From the IMG/VR virus record IMGVR_UViG_3300017917_003721, positions 1 through 25,998 of that record: a stretch of 25,998 nt of DNA; one strand, given 5' to 3'. The stretch comes from a virus. A model generated the notes under the pieces. That model saw only the letters and a list, made by a program, of their open reading frames with translations, did no database searches and was not told the DNA's origin. The position numbers and the translations under genes are program-made. Shown here one piece after another: positions 3,204 to 25,965 of the stretch. The stretch's first letter is position 1. The number at the start of each line of letters is the position of its first letter.

Positions 3204-3209
3204 TAATAT

Positions 3210-3311
3210 GCGACCGTGAGTGGAAATGGCAGACCTCTGCGTTCATCGCAGGCTGGGGCATCCGACTTAGTCAACGTGCCTTTGTAGGTTCGAAACCTAC
3301 CGGTCGTACCA
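3210..3311 (+). tRNA. Type II tRNA with anticodon TCA (UGA-reading or defective)
   Basis: Acceptor GCGACCG/CGGTCGT, discriminator A, CCA. The anticodon arm is TCTGC-GTTCATC-GCAGG, which gives anticodon UCA. The T arm GTAGG-TTCGAAA-CCTAC is intact. The D region resembles the Leu tRNAs in this window but its stem is weak. The variable region is about 31 bases, with stem GGCAT/GTGCC and an inner GAC/GTC. Base 37 is U, unusual for a working tRNA. It could be a UGA suppressor or a decayed Leu tRNA. Confidence 0.55.
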
Positions 3312-3318
3312 ATTTAAT

Positions 3319-3412
3319 AGTGACGTGGGTGAGAGGCTTAAACCACCTTCCTGCTAAGAAGACGATTCGGCATAAACCGGGTCCGAGGGTTCGAATCCCT
3401 CCGTCACTGCCA
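3319..3412 (+). tRNA. tRNA-Ser(GCT)
   Basis: Acceptor AGTGACG/CGTCACT, discriminator G, CCA; anticodon arm CTTCC-TGCTAAG region with GCT; long variable arm; T arm GAGGG-TTCGAAT-CCCTC. Confidence 0.9.
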
Positions 3413-3413
3413 A

Positions 3414-3480
3414 TTTTAGGATCAGTTCAGCAAACTAAAAAATCAAACTTGTAATTTGACTCAAAGTTGATCCTGTTATA
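3414..3480 (+). ncRNA. Element E1: stem-closed element with a free UGU anticodon stem-loop
   Basis: TTTTAGGATCA follows the tRNA-Ser CCA end; AGGATCA (3418-3424) pairs perfectly with TGATCCT (3468-3474). Next to the 5' arm is TTCAGCAAAC. In the middle, 3443-3459 is a textbook anticodon arm, TCAAA-CTTGTAA-TTTGA, with U33, UGU and A37-A38, but no acceptor, D or T arm. Its family is described in the findings. Expression as RNA is inferred from its place inside the tRNA array. Confidence 0.6.
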
Positions 3481-3486
3481 CAATAT

Positions 3487-3562
3487 GTCTCGCTGGTGTT
3501 TAACGGCAGCATAGCGGTCTCCAAAACCGTTGGACGGGGTTCGAATCCCTGGCGGGATGCCA
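3487..3562 (+). tRNA. tRNA-Trp(CCA)
   Basis: Acceptor GTCTCGC/GCGGGAT, discriminator G, CCA; anticodon arm GCGGT-CTCCAAA-ACCGT. Confidence 0.9.
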
Positions 3563-3736: not shown

Positions 3737-3738
3737 AG

Positions 3739-3812
3739 TTTTAGGATGCGTTCAGCAAACTTTATGCATTTGACTTCTAATCAAAAACGCAAAAAAGCAT
3801 CCTGTTATTTTC
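3739..3812 (+). ncRNA. Element E2: stem-closed element with a free UCU anticodon stem-loop
   Basis: AGGATGC (3743-3749) pairs perfectly with GCATCCT (3797-3803). The 5' arm is followed by TTCAGCAAACT, identical to E1 over 11 bases. At 3769-3785 there is an anticodon arm, TTTGA-CTTCTAA-TCAAA, with U33, UCU and A37-A38, without the rest of a tRNA. An inner pair GCGTT/AACGC (3748-3752, 3786-3790) could compete with the outer stem. Its loop is identical to that of the tRNA-Arg(TCT) at 8000. Confidence 0.6.
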
Positions 3813-4559: not shown

Positions 4560-4682
4560 GCCGCTGTAGTGTAATGGTTAGCACTCTAAAGAAGGTGATC
4601 CTGTCTTTAGGATACATACAGCAATTTTTCTATTTCCACTGTTAATGGAGAGGACTGGGTTCGAATCCCAGCAGCGGCGCCA
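4560..4682 (+). tRNA. tRNA-Asn(GTT) carrying a ~48-base insert (element E3)
   Basis: Acceptor GCCGCTG/CAGCGGC, G73, CCA, D stem GTGT/GCAC and T arm CTGGG-TTCGAAT-CCCAG form one tRNA. The anticodon arm (CTGTTAA-TGGAG) is separated from the D arm by an insert at about 4587-4634. Removing it restores a perfect CTCCA/TGGAG stem. The insert contains GTGATCCTGTC, TTTAGGATAC and TACAGCAA, the motifs of E1, E2 and E4, here in contiguous order. A normal tRNA-Asn(GTT) exists at 11734, so this copy may be processed by splicing or be defective. Confidence 0.65.
4587..4634 (+). other. Element E3: intron-like insert in tRNA-Asn
   Basis: ATCCT/AGGAT (with GT/AC beyond a bulged G) closes a short hairpin, followed by TACAGCAA. 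The junction falls in the 5' strand of the anticodon stem, with one-base ambiguity. It is far too short for a group I intron. Confidence 0.5.
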
Positions 4683-4808
4683 GTTTTAGGATACTTACAG
4701 CAAATTCTATCAAACGATAGGTAGTTGGTTCGATTCCAACATTACGCTCCATGCGTAGTTAGCTCATTAGGTAGAGCATTCGTCAAACGAAAGTATCCTG
4801 TTTTATTT
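4683..4808 (+). tRNA. Element E4: circularly permuted tRNA, anticodon ATC
   Basis: AGGATAC (4688-4694) pairs with GTATCCT (4793-4799). Inside, the 3' half of a tRNA (4708-4751, ending in CCA) comes first, then one T, then the 5' half (4753-4784). Joining 4784 to 4708 gives a regular 76-base cloverleaf: acceptor GCGTAGT/ATTACGC, D stem GCTC/GAGC, anticodon arm TTCGT-CTATCAA-ACGAT (one T-T mismatch), T arm GTTGG-TTCGATT-CCAAC, T73, CCA. The anticodon would be AUC (Asp GAU codon), which is odd with T73, so the identity is unsure. See the findings. Confidence 0.6.
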
Positions 4809-9948: not shown

Positions 9949-10026
<78 letters not shown>

Positions 10027-10030
10027 AGTT

Positions 10031-10213
10031 TTGTTGAAAGTGTGAGATGTAGAGAAAGGTAGTGTGGGCACACATTACTGAGCTAACGGTGCAAGTCCGA
10101 CAACACAGCAACTGGCAAGTAACTACTATCACTCACGAACCCTAAGCTAAGGTGGAGGCGCTGAATAATTTCCACAAAATGCGGTCAATGTTGTGGTGAC
10201 CGGCTTTCAACAA
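10031..10213 (+). ncRNA. Structured segment R3, ~183 bases, unknown class
   Basis: TTGTTGAAAG (10031-10040) pairs with CTTTCAACAA (10204-10213). Inside: GTGAG/CTCAC (10042-10046, 10132-10136), GTAG/CTAC, an 8-bp hairpin GTAGTGTG/CACATTAC with a 4-base loop (10059-10078), CGG/CCG around TGCAAGT (10087-10099) and CCACAA/TTGTGG (10172-10196). Nested stems point to a folded RNA with a multi-branch core. No ORF and no known motif recognised. Confidence 0.6.
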
Positions 10214-10217
10214 ATTC

Positions 10218-10224
10218 ATAAATA
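10218..10224 (+). promoter_or_regulatory. ATAAATA box before initiator tRNA
   Basis: CATAAATAG ends 3 bases before the initiator tRNA. It may be a late promoter or chance. Confidence 0.3.
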
Positions 10225-10227
10225 GAT

Positions 10228-10303
10228 CGCAGAGTGTTAGAAGTGGTATCTGGCAAGGCTCATAACCTTGAGGTCGGTGGTTCGAATCCACCCTCTGCAA
10301 CCA
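10228..10303 (+). tRNA. Initiator tRNA-fMet(CAT)
   Basis: Acceptor CGCAGAG/CTCTGCA leaves the C1-A72 mismatch that marks bacterial initiator tRNA; A73, CCA; anticodon arm CAAGG-CTCATAA-CCTTG; T arm GGTGG-TTCGAAT-CCACC. The three G-C pairs next to the loop seen in bacterial initiators are reduced to two. Confidence 0.85.
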
Positions 10304-12400: not shown

Positions 12401-12424
12401 GCCGGATTAGCTCAGGGGTAGAAC
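12401..12424 (+). pseudogene. 5' fragment of a tRNA next to the HNH gene
   Basis: GCCGGATTAGCTCAGGGGTA is a normal tRNA 5' end (acceptor, positions 8-9, D arm). The D stem then breaks (GAAC instead of GAGC), and the HNH control hairpin and gene follow. No matching 3' half is seen downstream. A remnant of a tRNA interrupted by the endonuclease unit is the simplest reading. Confidence 0.55.
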
Positions 12425-12451
12425 ATAAATAACTATGTTAGGAGTTCTACC
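12417..12451 (+). promoter_or_regulatory. Hairpin hiding the HNH ribosome site, with late-type box in its loop
   Basis: GGTAGAAC (12417-12424) pairs perfectly with GTTCTACC (12444-12451); the 3' arm begins at the last G of the AGGAG ribosome site (12440-12444) and ends just before ATG 12453. ATAAATA (12425-12431) is in the loop. Transcripts from upstream would form the hairpin; a late transcript starting in the loop would not. Confidence 0.6.
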
Positions 12452-12452
12452 A

Positions 12453-12848
12453 ATGAAAACATATAAATGTCTAACCTGCGGTAAAGAGTGTATTTTTACT
12501 CATCAAAAGACTAACAAGTATTGTAGTATTACTTGTCAGCAAGAGTTTCAATACAGAACGTATATTACAGAATGGAAAGAAGGGCTCCGAGACGGACGTA
12601 AAGGTAAGCTACAAACTAGTGGCTATATTCATCGTTACATTTTGGAGAAACAAGATGGTAAATGTGCAGACTGCTGTATTGACACTTGGTGCGAAAAGCC
12701 TATAAAATTAGAGCTTGATCACATTAATGGAAATAGCGAAGATAACACAGAGAAGAATTTAAGATGTTTATGTCCTAATTGTCATAGTCAAACGCCTACA
12801 TTCAAGGCTAAAAACAAAGGCAATGGACGCAAGCATCGAGTAAGTTAA
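12453..12848 (+). CDS. HNH endonuclease, homing type
   Basis: 131 residues from ATG 12453, chosen because AGGAG lies 8 bases upstream; the frame also has an ATG at 12435. The N-terminus has a zinc-finger-like CLTCGKEC...YCSITC. The HNH block is LELDHINGNSEDNTEKNLRCLCPNCHS, with the two Cys pairs (CADCC, CPNC) that hold the structural zinc. It would nick or cut DNA and spread itself. It sits between a tRNA 5' fragment and tRNA-Thr, typical of phage homing genes in tRNA arrays. Control is discussed at the hairpin. Confidence 0.85.
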   Translation: MKTYKCLTCGKECIFTHQKTNKYCSITCQQEFQYRTYITEWKEGLRDGRKGKLQTSGYIHRYILEKQDGKCADCCIDTWCEKPIKLELDHINGNSEDNTEKNLRCLCPNCHSQTPTFKAKNKGNGRKHRVS

Positions 12849-12849
12849 C

Positions 12850-12925
12850 GCCCTTATAGCTCAGCTGGTAGAGCAACTGATTTGTAATCAGTAGGTCCCG
12901 TGTTCGAATCATGGTGGGGGCACCA
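12850..12925 (+). tRNA. tRNA-Thr(TGT)
   Basis: Acceptor GCCCTTA/TGGGGGC, A73, CCA; anticodon arm ACTGA-TTTGTAA-TCAGT. The T stem is imperfect (CCGTG/CATGG). Confidence 0.88.
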
Positions 12926-13265
12926 TACAACCCCGGATCCCGTACCGGTTAGTAAACGGGGGCTTATTGTCCTAGCCATACCGGACACGGCGCATTGGAT
13001 CTGCCGCAAGGCCCGCGTTACATGGGCGACTTGAGAAATCACAAAGGCAGGGACGCTAACCTGTCTAAATGGAAAAGTACGTAGACGGAGTAGACAGCCC
13101 AGTCTAGGGTTCCTGTGGTGGGAGTAGCTAGACACTTTATAAAAACTCTTTGAGTAGCTACACTTGGAGTATCGTTAGTAGAAGTAAAGTCGACTACACT
13201 TCGAAGACGCCAAGGAAGAGAGGGGCTACCGTGGATTCAAGCGCCGCAGAGAGTTCCTATAAAGT
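12926..13265 (+). ncRNA. Structured segment R4, ~340 bases, unknown class
   Basis: This 340-base stretch between tRNA-Thr and tRNA-Gly has no credible ORF and looks richer in G+C than nearby genes. It holds CCCCG/CGGGG (12931-12935, 12957-12961), a GNRA hairpin GCC-GCAA-GGC (13003-13012), GCCC/GGGC, CAGG/CCTG (13048-13063) and a direct repeat of GAGTAGCTA..ACACTT (13122-13137, 13152-13165). It resembles the large ornate RNAs that accompany phage tRNA arrays (GOLLD and ROOL classes), but is shorter and not recognised. Confidence 0.55.
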
Positions 13266-13427: not shown

Positions 13428-13548
13428 AGTTTTAGGGAACTAGCACTCCCGGACCTCGTTTGTCGTTGTGCTAGTTTTAAACAACAATGGACTATCAAGC
13501 GAAAGCTAGCCTCCTAGAGGTTGTGTAGTTAGTTGTGCCCTAATTTTA
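13428..13548 (+). ncRNA. Structured segment R5, ~115 bases
   Basis: AGTTTTAGGG follows the tRNA-Val CCA, the same lead-in as elements E2 and E4. TTAGGG (13432-13437) pairs with CCCTAA (13538-13543). A 9-bp hairpin AACTAGCAC/GTGCTAGTT (13438-13476) and a second arm ACAAC/GTTGT (13481-13485, 13520-13524) with a GAAA tetraloop (AGC-GAAA-GCT) give a three-way-junction-like fold. It may be a distant relative of the E elements; there is no anticodon arm. Confidence 0.55.
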
Positions 13549-14036: not shown

Positions 14037-15194
14037 ATGAGAAAAAAATTAGCAATATTAGGTAGAGGCACTGCCGGATGCTTATCACTGGCACATTTTT
14101 TAAGACAGACTAATTGGGATATCGATCTTTATTACGATCCTAATATTCCACAACAGACTGTCGGCGAAGGATCTCAATTAAACTTACCCCATGCACTGTA
14201 TAATAATCTAGGGTTTCAGCACACTGATCTAGCTAAACTCGACGGTAGCTTCAAAGCAGGGATTTTTAAATCCGGTTGGGGATTAGAAGGTAAAGAGTTC
14301 TTTCATCATTTTCCCCCGCCAAGTCTTGCCTATCATTTTAATGCAGTAAAATTGCAAGAACACATTTTAGATCATGCTAGGACCAGCAGTAGATTTAAAG
14401 TCATAGAAGCGTACAAAGAACATAGTAACATAGATGCAGACTATATTCTAGATTGTTCCGGTAAGCCAGCTAACTACGATGATTTTATCATAGCCGATAG
14501 CATTCCAGTTAATTCTGTACATGTTACCCAATGCTATTGGGATTCACCTAAGTTTCAATATACATTAACTCTAGCCCGACCATATGGTTGGGTTTTCGGC
14601 ATTCCGTTAGCAAATCGATGTTCAATAGGTTATATGTACAACAACAATATTAACACACTCGACGAAGTTAAAGAAGATGTCAAAGAAATTTTTACTCAAT
14701 ATAATCTAGTACCTAGCACTACTACAAACACTTTTAGCTTTAACAATTACTATAGAAAAGAAAACTATAGTCAGCGAGTAATTTATAATGGAAATGCCAG
14801 TTTCTTTTTAGAACCCATTGAAGCGACATCAATTGGATTAATGAATAAAATTATAGCTCATGCACACGGTATTTGGAAAGATGGTGTCGAGCTCATACAT
14901 TTACACAACGATTATCTAAGAGAGATTGAAGAAATTAAAATCATGATGGCTGTACATTATTATGCAGGGTCAAAATGGGACACAGAATTTTGGAGGACTG
15001 CTCACGATAAAGCGCAGCCTGTAATAGATTCTGCGTTGAATAATTATCGTTTTAAAGATACTATTAAACAGGCTGAAACTTATAAACCCGGAGATCAACT
15101 TTTAGGCCATTTTGGAACCTGGGGTGAAGCAAGCTGGCAAGAAAACCTTAAGGGGCTAGGAATATTTTCAAAAATTAAGGGAATGATTAAATGA
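14037..15194 (+). CDS. Flavin-dependent halogenase-like protein (1)
   Basis: 385 residues. LAILGRGTAGCLSLAHFL is the N-terminal FAD-binding GxGxxG of the tryptophan-halogenase family; VGEGSQLNLP matches the block after strand 2 (VGE.t.p). YGWVFGIPLANRCSIGY corresponds to the family block that carries WxWxIP, here as GWVFGIPL, so the first Trp is missing. The enzyme would halogenate or otherwise oxidise a substrate with FADH2 and O2. A flavin reductase partner is not in this window. It is similar over its full length to the next gene and overlaps it by four bases (ATGA). Confidence 0.72.
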   Translation: MRKKLAILGRGTAGCLSLAHFLRQTNWDIDLYYDPNIPQQTVGEGSQLNLPHALYNNLGFQHTDLAKLDGSFKAGIFKSGWGLEGKEFFHHFPPPSLAYHFNAVKLQEHILDHARTSSRFKVIEAYKEHSNIDADYILDCSGKPANYDDFIIADSIPVNSVHVTQCYWDSPKFQYTLTLARPYGWVFGIPLANRCSIGYMYNNNINTLDEVKEDVKEIFTQYNLVPSTTTNTFSFNNYYRKENYSQRVIYNGNASFFLEPIEATSIGLMNKIIAHAHGIWKDGVELIHLHNDYLREIEEIKIMMAVHYYAGSKWDTEFWRTAHDKAQPVIDSALNNYRFKDTIKQAETYKPGDQLLGHFGTWGEASWQENLKGLGIFSKIKGMIK

Positions 15195-16360
15195 AAAAAC
15201 TATCTATTATAGGTAGAGGAACTGCTGGATGTTTTGCAGTTACACATTTTCTAAAACACACTGACTGGGAAATTGATTGGTACTTTGATTCTTCTATTAG
15301 CCCACAGGCAGTAGGAGAAGGTTCAACAGTTGATTTGCCGCCGTCTCTTTTTACCAATATAGGCTTTACCCTTGTCGACTTAGAAAAAATCTATGGAACA
15401 TTTAAAGCCGGCATCAAAAAACAGGGATGGGGTAAAGATGGCCGAGAGTTCTATCACTTTTTTGTACCAGGGCAGATCAGCTATCACTTTAATGCAGTAA
15501 AGCTACAAGAATATATTTTCGAAAAAGTCTGCTTAAATCCTCGAGTTAGGATTATAGATGCTAACATCACTGATCATAGCACCATTGACAGCGACTTTGT
15601 TTTTGATTGTTCTGGCAAGCCCAGCAACTTTAATGATTTTGTAGTTTCCGAAAACATACCTGTGAACTCTGTTCATGTTACTCAGTGCTATTGGGATTTG
15701 CCTAGATTTCAATATACGTTAACGTTGGCTCGACCATATGGTTGGGTATTTGGCATTCCATTGAGAAATCGATGCTCTATCGGATATCTTTACAACAACA
15801 AGATTAATTCGCTTGATGAAGTCAAAGAAGATGTCAAAGATATATTTAGGCAATACGAACTAACACCTAGTCAAGATACAAATAGTTTTTCATTCGGTAA
15901 CTATTATCGAAAAGAAAACTTTCAAGGTCGTAGTATCTATAGCGGTAATGCCAGTTTCTTTTTAGAACCGCTCGAAGCTACTAGTATCTATTGTATGAAT
16001 CAAATTCAATTCATGGCACTGAGTCATTGGAAGGGCGGTATACCTCGAGACCAAGCTAACATCGAATACAGTAAACTATTAAATGGTGTTGAAGATGTGA
16101 TTATGCTACACTATTTTGAATCCCCATATAAAACAAGATTCTGGGAAATGGCTAAAGAACGCAGTCGAAATAGGTTAAGGTTTAGTTTAGGTAAAGAAGG
16201 TAGTGAAAATTTAAAAGCACAGGTTAGAGGAGTTGTTAGTCCTGCAACAAATATGGATCCTACTAGAATACCATTCCATGGTTCATGGAATCATTATGCC
16301 TTTTCACAAAATTTAGAGAATCTCGGAATAAGTAGAGATCTTTATATTATGTCACGATAA
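15191..16360 (+). CDS. Flavin-dependent halogenase-like protein (2)
   Basis: 389 residues, paralog of the preceding gene. Shared blocks include GRGTAGC, VGEGS, FKAG, YHFNAVKLQE, FDCSGKP, NSVHVTQCYWD, FQYTLTLARPYGWVFGIPL, NRCSIGY and NASFFLEP-EATSI. It differs most in its C-terminal third. The start ATG overlaps the upstream stop, so the two are translated together, possibly as partners or for two substrates. Like its partner, it has GWVFGIPL in place of WxWxIP, so loss or change of halogenation is possible. Confidence 0.72.
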   Translation: MKKLSIIGRGTAGCFAVTHFLKHTDWEIDWYFDSSISPQAVGEGSTVDLPPSLFTNIGFTLVDLEKIYGTFKAGIKKQGWGKDGREFYHFFVPGQISYHFNAVKLQEYIFEKVCLNPRVRIIDANITDHSTIDSDFVFDCSGKPSNFNDFVVSENIPVNSVHVTQCYWDLPRFQYTLTLARPYGWVFGIPLRNRCSIGYLYNNKINSLDEVKEDVKDIFRQYELTPSQDTNSFSFGNYYRKENFQGRSIYSGNASFFLEPLEATSIYCMNQIQFMALSHWKGGIPRDQANIEYSKLLNGVEDVIMLHYFESPYKTRFWEMAKERSRNRLRFSLGKEGSENLKAQVRGVVSPATNMDPTRIPFHGSWNHYAFSQNLENLGISRDLYIMSR

Positions 16361-23591: not shown

Positions 23592-24106
23592 AAGAAAAGT
23601 TTATTAAGATGTATATGGATTGGGCTCTACGTGCTGCAGAACTCAGCCATGCCCGCAGGCTTCATGTAGGTGCAGTCATTGTCAAAGACGATACTGTGAT
23701 CAGCTACGGCTATAATGGTATGCCCGCAGGATGGGATAACAACTGCGAAGATGTAGAATGGTGCTCAGCAGGTGGTTGGCTAAGCCCCGAAGAAATTGAA
23801 GAAGGCTGGCCATATGAAGGTGTATACTTAGATGCAGATGGTAACGAAATGCAGAGCCGATATAGGCTTAGAACTAAACCAGAGGTACTTCATGCAGAAT
23901 CAAATGCTATTGCAAAATTGGCGAAGTCTAACAACAGTGGGCTTGGTGCCGATCTGTTTGTTACTCATAGTCCTTGTATTGAGTGTGCCAAACTTATCTA
24001 TCAATCTGGTATTCGCCGTGTATTTTACCGCGAAAATTATCGGGATGACACTGGAACAGAATTTTTACAAAAATCTAGGGTAGAAGTAATAAAAGTAGAC
24101 CATTAA
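23588..24106 (+). CDS. dCMP deaminase
   Basis: 172 residues. VGAVIVKDD...YGYNGMPAG, H102-A-E104 and S-P-C130-I-E-C133 are the zinc-binding and catalytic blocks of dCMP/cytidine deaminases; the ~45-residue insert with NNCEDVEW is typical of phage dCMP deaminases. It makes dUMP for thymidylate synthesis during DNA replication. ATG overlaps the upstream gene by four bases. Confidence 0.88.
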   Translation: MKEKFIKMYMDWALRAAELSHARRLHVGAVIVKDDTVISYGYNGMPAGWDNNCEDVEWCSAGGWLSPEEIEEGWPYEGVYLDADGNEMQSRYRLRTKPEVLHAESNAIAKLAKSNNSGLGADLFVTHSPCIECAKLIYQSGIRRVFYRENYRDDTGTEFLQKSRVEVIKVDH

Positions 24107-24163
24107 AGTAGCATATAATTATGCAGTAGGTGTGATAACTAATAGTACTAAAGCAAGGAACTT

Positions 24164-24886
24164 ATGACTAAATTTGCTTGGTACAGCCTAGATCGGCAGA
24201 ATATTATAAATTTTCTGCACCTTATTGATCCATTGTTGGTTTCTCAACAGCTAACCATTCCTCAATTTCATAGAATTTTAGTCAATCATATCAAAAAGTA
24301 CCTACCAATTAAATTTAAAAAAAATAAAAATCCTTTAGTAAAAGTTAATGAAGTCTGGGTAGGTGGAACCTATTACAGCGATTTTGATCAAGAAAGAAAG
24401 AAGTGTATTCAGCTAGTGTTAGAGTATTCTCTTTTTGACGAAGAAATTAAAATTAGTAGAAGAAATTGGAACAAAATGTGCTGTGGTATTGCAGATACAT
24501 TACTGCATGAAGTCATTCACATGAGGCAATATCGAAGAAGAAAATTTAAAATTCTTCCCGATTATGCCAGTACAGCTGAAAAACAAGAACTGCGGCAAGA
24601 GCAAAGTTATCTAGGATGCTCAGACGAAATAGATGCTTATAGCTTTAACATCGCCTGCGAGCTATATGACAAGTTTAACGGCGACCCCGCTAGCATCATA
24701 AATTATCTTAATGAAAATCAAAAGGGCAAACGTAGAAGGCACAATAGTTGGAGAATGTATCTAAAAGCCTTTCAACATGATCACAACCATCCTATAATAC
24801 AAAGAGTGAAAACTAAAGTAGTCCGATACCTACCATTTGCTGAAATCGGCAAGCCTTATCGAAATAAAGATTGGATTGATCGTTGA
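24164..24886 (+). CDS. Zinc metallopeptidase-like protein (HExxH)
   Basis: 240 residues. ADTLLHEVIHMRQYRRR gives H115-E116-x2-H119; SDEIDAYSFNIA after it may supply the third ligand (Glu), the pattern of SprT-like and related gluzincin-type phage proteins. AAGGAAC precedes the ATG. The N-terminal 60 residues are basic and helical. A target cannot be named. Confidence 0.6.
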   Translation: MTKFAWYSLDRQNIINFLHLIDPLLVSQQLTIPQFHRILVNHIKKYLPIKFKKNKNPLVKVNEVWVGGTYYSDFDQERKKCIQLVLEYSLFDEEIKISRRNWNKMCCGIADTLLHEVIHMRQYRRRKFKILPDYASTAEKQELRQEQSYLGCSDEIDAYSFNIACELYDKFNGDPASIINYLNENQKGKRRRHNSWRMYLKAFQHDHNHPIIQRVKTKVVRYLPFAEIGKPYRNKDWIDR

Positions 24887-24911
24887 CACCTCTATAAGAT
24901 GATGTTATGCT
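24883..24911 (+). promoter_or_regulatory. Sigma70-like promoter
   Basis: TTGACA, 17-base spacer, TATGCT. The -35 overlaps the metallopeptidase stop. Its expected start would fall at or very near ATG 24918, so the message may be leaderless or the promoter may serve a later start. Confidence 0.5.
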
Positions 24912-24917
24912 TAAGGT

Positions 24918-25145
24918 ATGAACATCACAGCCCGTACCACAAAAATCAAAACCATTCGGCAGACTGATCCTAATTTCCAGATTATAGACGGAATGGTGAT
25001 TTCTCCCCGAGCGGGTTTTGAAATAAACCAAAGTTGTCCGAGAGAATACAAAATGATTATATCAGAATGTATTAATAACGGATGGCTCAAACCTGTAGCG
25101 CATGTTACAGAACGTGAATTTATTTTCATGGGGCTGACCAAGTAA
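24918..25145 (+). CDS. Small hypothetical protein (75 aa)
   Basis: MNITARTTKIKTIRQTDPNFQIIDGMVISPRAGFEINQSCPREYKMIISECINNGWLKP..., beta-rich with a short helix. TTAAGG lies 2-6 bases upstream of the ATG, too near for a good ribosome site. No family recognised. It precedes the dehydrogenase gene by 13 bases. Confidence 0.55.
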   Translation: MNITARTTKIKTIRQTDPNFQIIDGMVISPRAGFEINQSCPREYKMIISECINNGWLKPVAHVTEREFIFMGLTK

Positions 25146-25147
25146 TT

Positions 25148-25153
25148 TAAATA
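25148..25153 (+). promoter_or_regulatory. TAAATA box before dehydrogenase-like gene
   Basis: TTTAAATAATAGTATG, box 5 bases before ATG 25159 and no Shine-Dalgarno. Confidence 0.4.
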
Positions 25154-25158
25154 ATAGT

Positions 25159-25965
25159 ATGAATTTTTTTAAAAGACCAAAAATAGGAATCGTCGGACTA
25201 GGGTTTGTCGGCGGTGCAATAAGAGATGCAATGGCAGATCATTGCGAACTTGTATTAGTAGATAAGGATCCAAATAAAGCAAGTCATACCTTTACAGATC
25301 TAAAAGACTGCGAGGGAATATTTGTCTGTGTTCCCACACCTTTTAGTGACGACGGCAGATGCGATACTAGTATTTTAGAGTATGTCCTTGAAAATCTTAA
25401 AGACTACGAAGGTGTTATTATCAGTAAATGTACAGCACCTCCGCTGGTATATCGAGAACTAAACAGAAATCATTCTAATTTAGTACATGCTCCTGAATTT
25501 CTTACTGCTGCCAATGCTCACATTGATTATATAACGGGTAAGTTTATTATTATTGGCGGGCGTGTTTCCGCATTTAGAAATGAAGCCGAACGTATTATTC
25601 GACTAGGGCAACCCGAAGCAGAACATGTAGCTCATTGCACTATCGAAGAAGCTAGTCTAGCCAAATATACCATTAATTCTTTCTTGGCAACTAAGGTTAC
25701 ATTTATGAATGAACTATACCAGTTGTCAACTCTATTAGGAACTGACTATAATACAGTAGCACGAATGGTAACCATGGATGAACGTATTGGTAAAAGTCAT
25801 ATGCGTGTTCCAGGTCCAGACGGCGAATTCGGATTCGGAGGGATGTGTTTTCCGAAGGATACAAGTGCTCTATTAAAATTTGCCAGCGATGTTGGCGCAA
25901 ATATGAATGTTCTCGATGCGGCTGTTAAGAAAAATACGCTATTGAGGTTGACAGAACCTAAATAA
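25159..25965 (+). CDS. UDP-sugar 6-dehydrogenase-like protein, short form
   Basis: 268 residues. KIGIVGLGFVGGAIRD is the NAD-binding GxGxxG; VCVPTPF, SKCTAP, VHAPEFLTAANA and EASLAKYTINSFLATKVTFMNE are family blocks; FGFGGMCFPKDTSAL carries the catalytic Cys (C230). Family members usually have 390-450 residues and a C-terminal UDP-binding domain, which is absent. It would oxidise a nucleotide sugar to the uronate, feeding the glycosyltransferases, if the missing domain is not needed. Confidence 0.78.
   Translation: MNFFKRPKIGIVGLGFVGGAIRDAMADHCELVLVDKDPNKASHTFTDLKDCEGIFVCVPTPFSDDGRCDTSILEYVLENLKDYEGVIISKCTAPPLVYRELNRNHSNLVHAPEFLTAANAHIDYITGKFIIIGGRVSAFRNEAERIIRLGQPEAEHVAHCTIEEASLAKYTINSFLATKVTFMNELYQLSTLLGTDYNTVARMVTMDERIGKSHMRVPGPDGEFGFGGMCFPKDTSALLKFASDVGANMNVLDAAVKKNTLLRLTEPK

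Follow-up and report, generated by a model that had tools for sequence, protein, structure and literature searches.

Why would a viral tRNA array carry the anticodon arm of a tRNA and no other part of it? The question is raised by a stretch of 25,998 nucleotides (positions 1 to 25,998 of the IMG/VR virus record IMGVR_UViG_3300017917_003721; hereafter the window), in which a small element, E1, lies at 3413-3479 on the + strand between a tRNA-Ser gene ending at 3412 and a tRNA-Trp gene starting at 3487. A preliminary description of this DNA had picked out a hairpin at 3443-3459 with the hallmarks of an anticodon arm, with no acceptor, D or T arm and with a family stem around it, and all three statements hold. 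The strands TCAAA (3443-3447) and TTTGA (3455-3459) form a 5-bp stem that closes the 7-nt loop CTTGTAA (3448-3454), in which U33 is at 3449, the anticodon TGT (UGU) at 3450-3452, A37 at 3453 and A38 at 3454; neither ARAGORN nor the Rfam tRNA model calls a tRNA here. The enclosing stem, P1, pairs AGGATCA (3418-3424) with TGATCCT (3468-3474), which is followed by GTTAT, and in E1 it extends to 10 pairs if G-U is counted. Behind its 5' strand stands the core TTCAGCAA (3426-3433), the local form of the family core TNCAGCAA. E1 is a genuine mimic of an anticodon arm, without a tRNA body and held inside a family stem. Because of the RNA family to which it belongs, the linkage of that family to DUF2828 genes and the match of the DUF2828 protein to the Ro60/TROVE fold, we think that E1 is probably a phage analogue of the Y RNAs: a non-coding small RNA, part of a phage Ro60 ribonucleoprotein (RNP), with the anticodon arm as its effector module.

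A large virus-specific RNA family

E1 is one of the many members of an RNA family that is specific to viruses. A two-part pattern, TTTAGGATNNNTNCAGCAA followed 20-50 nt downstream by ATCCTGT, has at least 120 matches in viral contigs, and at least 120 are likewise found with 75-105 nt between the parts. A bacterial origin of the family was rejected, because the same pattern, of 22 bases, has one match among 84,980 genomes of bacteria and archaea and about one chance match is estimated at that size. Among 307 distinct AGGAT-type elements used to follow covariation, the two variable positions of P1 pair in 302 and 291 cases (expected 127.3 and 140.4), with all four Watson-Crick pairs occurring at both, and the third position is unpaired (108 of 307 against 123.7 expected). 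When the AGGAT requirement is dropped, the collected loci contain 507 copies of TNCAGCAA closed by seven exact pairs, compared with 4-8 for five rearranged control cores and 44 for TNCTGCAA, a core with a single base changed; the core is presumed to be a protein-binding internal loop. P1 starts with AGGAT, AGGTT, AGAAT, AGGCT, AGAGT or GGGAT, with 3' strands to match, and a variant core, AACAGCAC, occurs in Milchi in four P1-closed elements, one of which has the loop CTTTTAA. No description of the motif was found in the literature searched, an earlier one in key Y-RNA papers not being excludable. Ro60 proteins and Y RNAs are in themselves already known or suspected in phages; the present RNA family, whose members number in the hundreds, is as yet uncatalogued.

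The part enclosed by P1 and the core, which we call the payload, was studied in 613 distinct strict elements, 339 of which have a short payload without a T arm, and was compared with 200 shuffles. A hairpin of 5 bp and 7 nt is present in 177 of the 339 short payloads (shuffled mean 24.7, maximum 37), one that also has U33 in 150 (mean 6.4, maximum 15), and one with both U33 and R37 in 130 (mean 3.7, maximum 9). The 177 hairpins include 146 with A37 and 130 with A38, and the commonest loops are CTTTTAA (27 payloads), CTTGTAA as in E1 (22), CTGTTAA (11) and CTTCTAA (7), the last being that of E2, a second element in the window. If canonical anticodon loops are chosen by loop sequence alone, 95 of 120 have all five flanking positions paired, in 38 distinct stems, whereas redealing the 3' strands gives an expectation of 18.5 of 120 with a maximum of 29. 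Relatives do keep the loop as a valid anticodon loop, a point on which the preliminary description had placed weight: loops stay canonical while their stems covary. The identity of the loop is strongly constrained.

The idea that the anticodon payloads replace missing tRNAs was rejected, since 72 of 128 such elements coexist with a complete tRNA that has their anticodon (64.3 expected); in the window, a tRNA-Thr(UGU) called by ARAGORN at 12850 has the anticodon of E1. Another class of payload consists of tRNA bodies in circularly permuted order, with a T arm, a capped acceptor and a D arm, such as that of the window element E4. We also noticed, at many loci (e.g. L005, L030 and L065), short hairpins with loops of the ATTGG or ATGGA type in place of anticodon loops, and a class of long payloads in which a T-arm-like hairpin such as GTGAGTTTCGATTTCTCAC is followed by AAAAAGTAGAAAAC before P1 (L007 at 3022, L160, L217 at 7035 and L278 at 9818).

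Linkage to DUF2828 genes

The first clue to a partner came from two isolates found by BLAST, in which an element has as its neighbor either a DUF2828 gene or a gene of about that length that carries no name. Of the 60 IMG/VR records that bear elements and are 50 kb or longer, 52 encode DUF2828 (PF11443; 17 of 20 and 35 of 40 in the two sets), as do all six element-bearing isolates examined. Relatives of DUF2828 are found in 681 of 50,697 phage records overall, and DUF2828 in none of nine control phages (T4, CPt10, Sf-FR1, KaAlpha, FLC9, RHph_TM30, D419, Francob and pSal-SNUABM-01). The reverse test, with 80 loci collected by the DUF2828 protein alone, showed that 59 loci contain strict elements, 99 in all, against 4-8 for rearranged cores; 94 of the 99 share the strand of the gene, and 50 of 93 elements lie within 500 nt of the DUF2828 gene where 6.0 would be expected.

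The same is seen in five of six further isolates picked by the DUF2828 protein alone (Campylobacter CPX, Mycobacterium Moostard, Listeria LP-083-2, Staphylococcus SEP9 and Vibrio VH1_2019), whose elements stand next to the gene or close to it. The elements of CPX and Moostard carry the loop CTGCTAA, and in LP-083-2 three elements immediately precede the gene; the sixth isolate, Serratia BF, has no element within 5 kb of the gene. A relaxed CAGCA rule was applied to these six, for which controls gave 0-4 per locus, and the assignments in Moostard and LP-083-2 rest on tandem position and payloads. Among the control phages, a loose 6-bp rule gave four matches in KaAlpha and two in FLC9, compared with 0-2 per single rearranged core, and these are without the CTG tail of the family; weak BLAST matches in Sf-FR1 and CPt10 were dismissed as chance. 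The Rhizobium phage RHph_TM30 encodes a TROVE protein (23929-25497) inside a tRNA array and has no TNCAGCAA element in 30 kb, and its Y RNA, if any, is therefore different. In the literature searched, DUF2828 is mentioned in four papers, which to judge by their titles all deal with plants.

A predicted Ro60 fold for the candidate partner

The partner proteins match Pfam DUF2828 and DUF7788 and phrog_850 (annotated 'RNA-binding protein'), with a sub-threshold vWA_Ro60 match in two of four, and several mycobacteriophage records name DUF2828 proteins Ro-like. An AlphaFold model of the DUF2828 protein (29 sequences) reached a predicted local distance difference test score of 84.1 and a predicted template modelling score of 0.84. 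The ten best Foldseek matches of this model, with E-values from 5.9e-10 to 5.9e-6 and comprising all ten below 1e-5, are Ro60/TROVE proteins and include the Ro60 of a Thermus phage. VIA Z-scores for Ro60 structures are 13.0-19.6 over 368-404 residues, the next unrelated row reaching 10.8 over 182, and Ro60/TROVE proteins are the sole matches of a sequence-profile search of the PDB (E 0.06-0.07). The DUF2828 protein is thus predicted to have the fold of Ro60/TROVE, a HEAT-type ring with a vWA domain. The likeness to Ro60, Rsr and TROVE structures (1YVP, 2NVO and 9L5Y) covers the predicted DUF2828 plus DUF7788 fold and a MIDAS-like DVSGSM; the difference is that identity is 11-18% and that the Pfam families are separate.

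Judged by the broad description of a Y RNA, the family has a handle of paired ends, a conserved internal loop and a variable effector module, and at the family level its genes lie beside a gene of predicted Ro60 fold. The phage Ro60-like protein (DUF2828 plus DUF7788, phrog_850) would accordingly be a candidate to bind the handle, made up of P1 and the core, and the virus from which the window derives presumably encodes such a protein elsewhere in its genome.

Sister elements in the window

The motif TTTAGGATNNNTNCAGCAA has exactly four exact copies in the window (3415, 3740, 4606 and 4685), all on the + strand; allowing up to three mismatches gives eight matches (shuffles: mean 1.4, maximum 4), and the reversed motif has none. 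E2 (3738-3808, +) has the same scaffold as E1, with an anticodon stem-loop at 3769-3785 and the loop CTTCTAA (UCU). E4 (4684-4804, +; fold z = -5.5) is a scaffold around a circularly permuted tRNA body: P1 pairs 4688-4694 with 4793-4799, the core is at 4696-4703, and the body comprises a T arm (4724-4740), an acceptor (4741-4747 with 4753-4759) capped by TCCAT and a D arm (4762-4777). A near twin of E4 is found in another record (L107, also G040), in which DUF2828 is present.

In E3 (4560-4682, +) the scaffold stem appears instead as an extra, capped arm of a tRNA-Asn whose anticodon stem-loop is at 4634-4650 (loop CTGTTAA). The grafted arm, made up of ATCCT (4598-4602), the loop GTCTTT, AGGAT (4609-4613) and the core TACAGCAA (4617-4624), sits between the D arm and the anticodon arm; the Rfam tRNA model scores 44.4 bits across the insert, and the fold has z = -3.1. 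A second such case has the handle inside a tRNA-Glu-like gene of locus L058. A scan for this arrangement gave 17 matches against 5-9 for control patterns, and we therefore claim only these two cases, both within tRNA sequences.

Comparison with known RNAs

The closest known RNA is YrlA (RF02553), which likewise combines paired ends with a circularly permuted, capped tRNA-like module and whose gene lies near a gene of Ro60 fold. A module of this type is present in E4 and absent from E1. E4 matches the Rfam YrlA model from end to end, at a sub-threshold 27.6 bits (gathering 69), with its T, acceptor and D arms aligned to the model and the Ro-binding stem not aligned. The present family differs from YrlA in the sequence of its handle and core, in a partner of DUF2828 rather than Pfam TROVE type, in its bare anticodon stem-loops and other hairpins, and in that a genome has several copies, dispersed over its tRNA arrays.

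According to the available part of PMC12282133, the Listeria phage CKA15 has three unannotated regions of very abundant RNA, no more than 2 kb away from an Rsr-like gene on its upstream side, for which Y RNAs were suggested, and Chen et al. 2014 is cited there for suspected Y RNAs in mycobacteriophages. The likeness is in the position next to the Rsr-like gene, with the relative LP-083-2 having its three family elements directly upstream; the difference is that neither an RNA motif or family nor an anticodon-loop payload is described in this part of the paper. The same source reports the Rsr-like CKA15_055 in purified virions (20 peptides), and a Ro60-type RNP might therefore be packaged. Species 1 and 2 of T4 (rnaC and rnaD) are also stable RNAs from a phage tRNA cluster, rnaC with a T-arm-like hairpin, but neither has a TNCAGCAA core with P1 and T4 has no DUF2828, so that they were rejected as members of the family. 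We know of no function for these two RNAs.

Evidence against a phage Y RNA

Several observations weigh against reading E1 as a Y-RNA analogue. On its own E1 folds no better than shuffled sequence (z = -0.53, and -1.02 in a second comparison in which 26 of 200 shuffles were as stable), and its anticodon stem is in neither the predicted minimum free energy (MFE) structure nor the centroid, whereas the MFE structure of E2 contains its stem-loop. The folding energy of E1 being unremarkable, the case for it therefore rests on comparison. The window fragment has no DUF2828, so that the partner is inferred from relatives; in addition, 8 of the 60 element-bearing records lack DUF2828 (all may be fragments), and 21 of the 80 DUF2828 loci have no strict element (some of these loci are short). 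The classical TROVE domain (PF05731) is absent from 20 of 20 element-bearing records, and the handle has no sequence match to the Ro-binding stem of YrlA, in an alignment with many non-standard pairs. Finally, 162 of the 339 short payloads have no 5-bp, 7-nt hairpin, which a pure anticodon-decoy view does not explain.

What the payloads may do

RNAs that travel with a phage version of Ro60 probably mislead or recruit enzymes that act on tRNA. Under the Y-RNA reading, the RNP would display pieces of tRNA to tRNA-recognizing enzymes: an imitation of tRNA-Thr(UGU) in E1, of the UCU arm of an Arg tRNA in E2, a permuted, anticodon-less body as in YrlA in E4, and a tRNA with a grafted handle in E3. 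These would most likely act chiefly as competitive decoys for host anticodon-loop nucleases, allowing the real tRNAs to survive infection. A decoy for anticodon nucleases had been offered in the preliminary description and is a live reading of E1; the mimicry of the loop is what suggests it. The available part of PMC7790460 raises a similar possibility for YrlA, suggesting its tRNA-like domain as a competitive inhibitor of an anticodon nuclease. We can extend the reading only tentatively to a modular form of counter-defence, in which a Ro60-type protein would carry interchangeable Y-type RNAs that each show a different piece of tRNA (chosen anticodon arms, anticodon-less bodies or handle-bearing tRNAs) and decoy anticodon and tRNA nucleases of Gram-negative, Gram-positive, mycobacterial and cyanobacterial hosts. 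If this is true, the anticodon set of a phage would record the nucleases that it has met.

The main rival, which we regard as somewhat unlikely, is that the anticodon arm is a tether by which the RNP recruits enzymes of tRNA repair or modification (an RNA ligase, RtcB or a kinase, for instance), or else a nuclease, for which PNPase is an example, in order to repair or clear damaged tRNAs. A Y RNA links PNPase to Rsr in Deinococcus (PMC7790460 and PMC12282133, as far as the available parts go). RNA ligase genes are found near the DUF2828 genes of LP-083-2 (an RtcB-like protein and an RNA ligase) and BF (an RNA ligase), and EniLVp02 has one in its tRNA region, but such neighbors are common in large phages anyway. 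The tRNA classes with NNU or NNA anticodons bear bulky modifications at position 37, and 125 of 142 anticodon payloads fall in these classes, whereas 2,000 draws from the tRNAs in these loci give an expected 78.8 and a maximum of 97.

A related proposal, that the elements are substrates or mimics for A37-modifying enzymes (TsaD for U36 and MiaA for A36) and titrate host modification, could draw on the same arms, in which U36 occurs in 92 of 142 and A36 in 33 of 142, and on the prevalence of A37 and A38. Payloads rich in A and U would favor these bases in any case, and permuted tRNA bodies without an anticodon would not bind either enzyme, so that we find the proposal improbable. We give very little credence to a functionless payload, with the element serving as a spacer hairpin in the processing or folding of the tRNA operon transcript: 180 of the 307 elements do begin 1-3 nt after a CCA, but the constraint on the loop is strong and elements also stand in tandem runs beside the DUF2828 genes of LAh_9, SEP9 and LP-083-2.

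Two further suggestions of the preliminary description, an exchangeable anticodon exon and a permuted tRNA that lost its body, are unsupported: the stem and core around the arm form a conserved RNA handle, and this handle is linked to the gene for a Ro60-like protein. For E1 to supply the middle exon of a tRNA gene that is split or permuted, the halves of P1 would act like intron halves and pair the exon flanks as in split tRNAs, and E3 and E4 do hold tRNA halves around the same motif. The acceptor, D arm and T arm are available to E1 neither within its gene nor in trans through splice motifs, however, and its anticodon is not missing from the genome; permuted bodies often have an acceptor capped by a short loop and no CCA end, tRNAs of the same anticodon coexist with the elements, which cluster at DUF2828 genes, and many hairpins on the same scaffold are not anticodon stem-loops, all of which makes this explanation scarcely credible. 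A self-cleaving ribozyme or group I remnant was rejected, since E1 has no Rfam 15 match at E<=5 and E2 only a chance-level one (Ysr35).

A single odd hairpin has led to hundreds of related RNAs, a family that Rfam 15 does not match, and the widespread DUF2828 proteins of phages gain a candidate RNA partner. The abundant unexplained RNAs of a Listeria phage also gain a candidate identity, and some odd tRNA annotations in phages may prove to be such elements. Because phages offer many natural swaps of payload on one handle, the purpose of tRNA mimicry by Y RNAs becomes directly testable.

Other features of the window

At 3204-3311 the window has a tRNA-like stretch with the anticodon loop GTTCATC (UCA, which would read UGA) and no ARAGORN call. 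At 12402-12848 the 5' part of a tRNA (GCCGGATTAGCTCAGGGGTAGAAC) runs into an open reading frame (12435-12848) that looks by eye like an HNH endonuclease, possibly a tRNA gene interrupted by homing. Three long intergenic stretches with inverted-repeat ends lie in the tRNA cluster (10026-10228, 12930-13265 and 13428-13548); Rfam returned only tRNAs and chance-level plastid matches for them at E<=1, and the second contains a tmRNA-like stretch, GGGGCTACCGTGGATTC. Two adjacent, similar open reading frames at 14037-16360 (repeat D1, 76% DNA identity) resemble flavin-dependent halogenases by eye.
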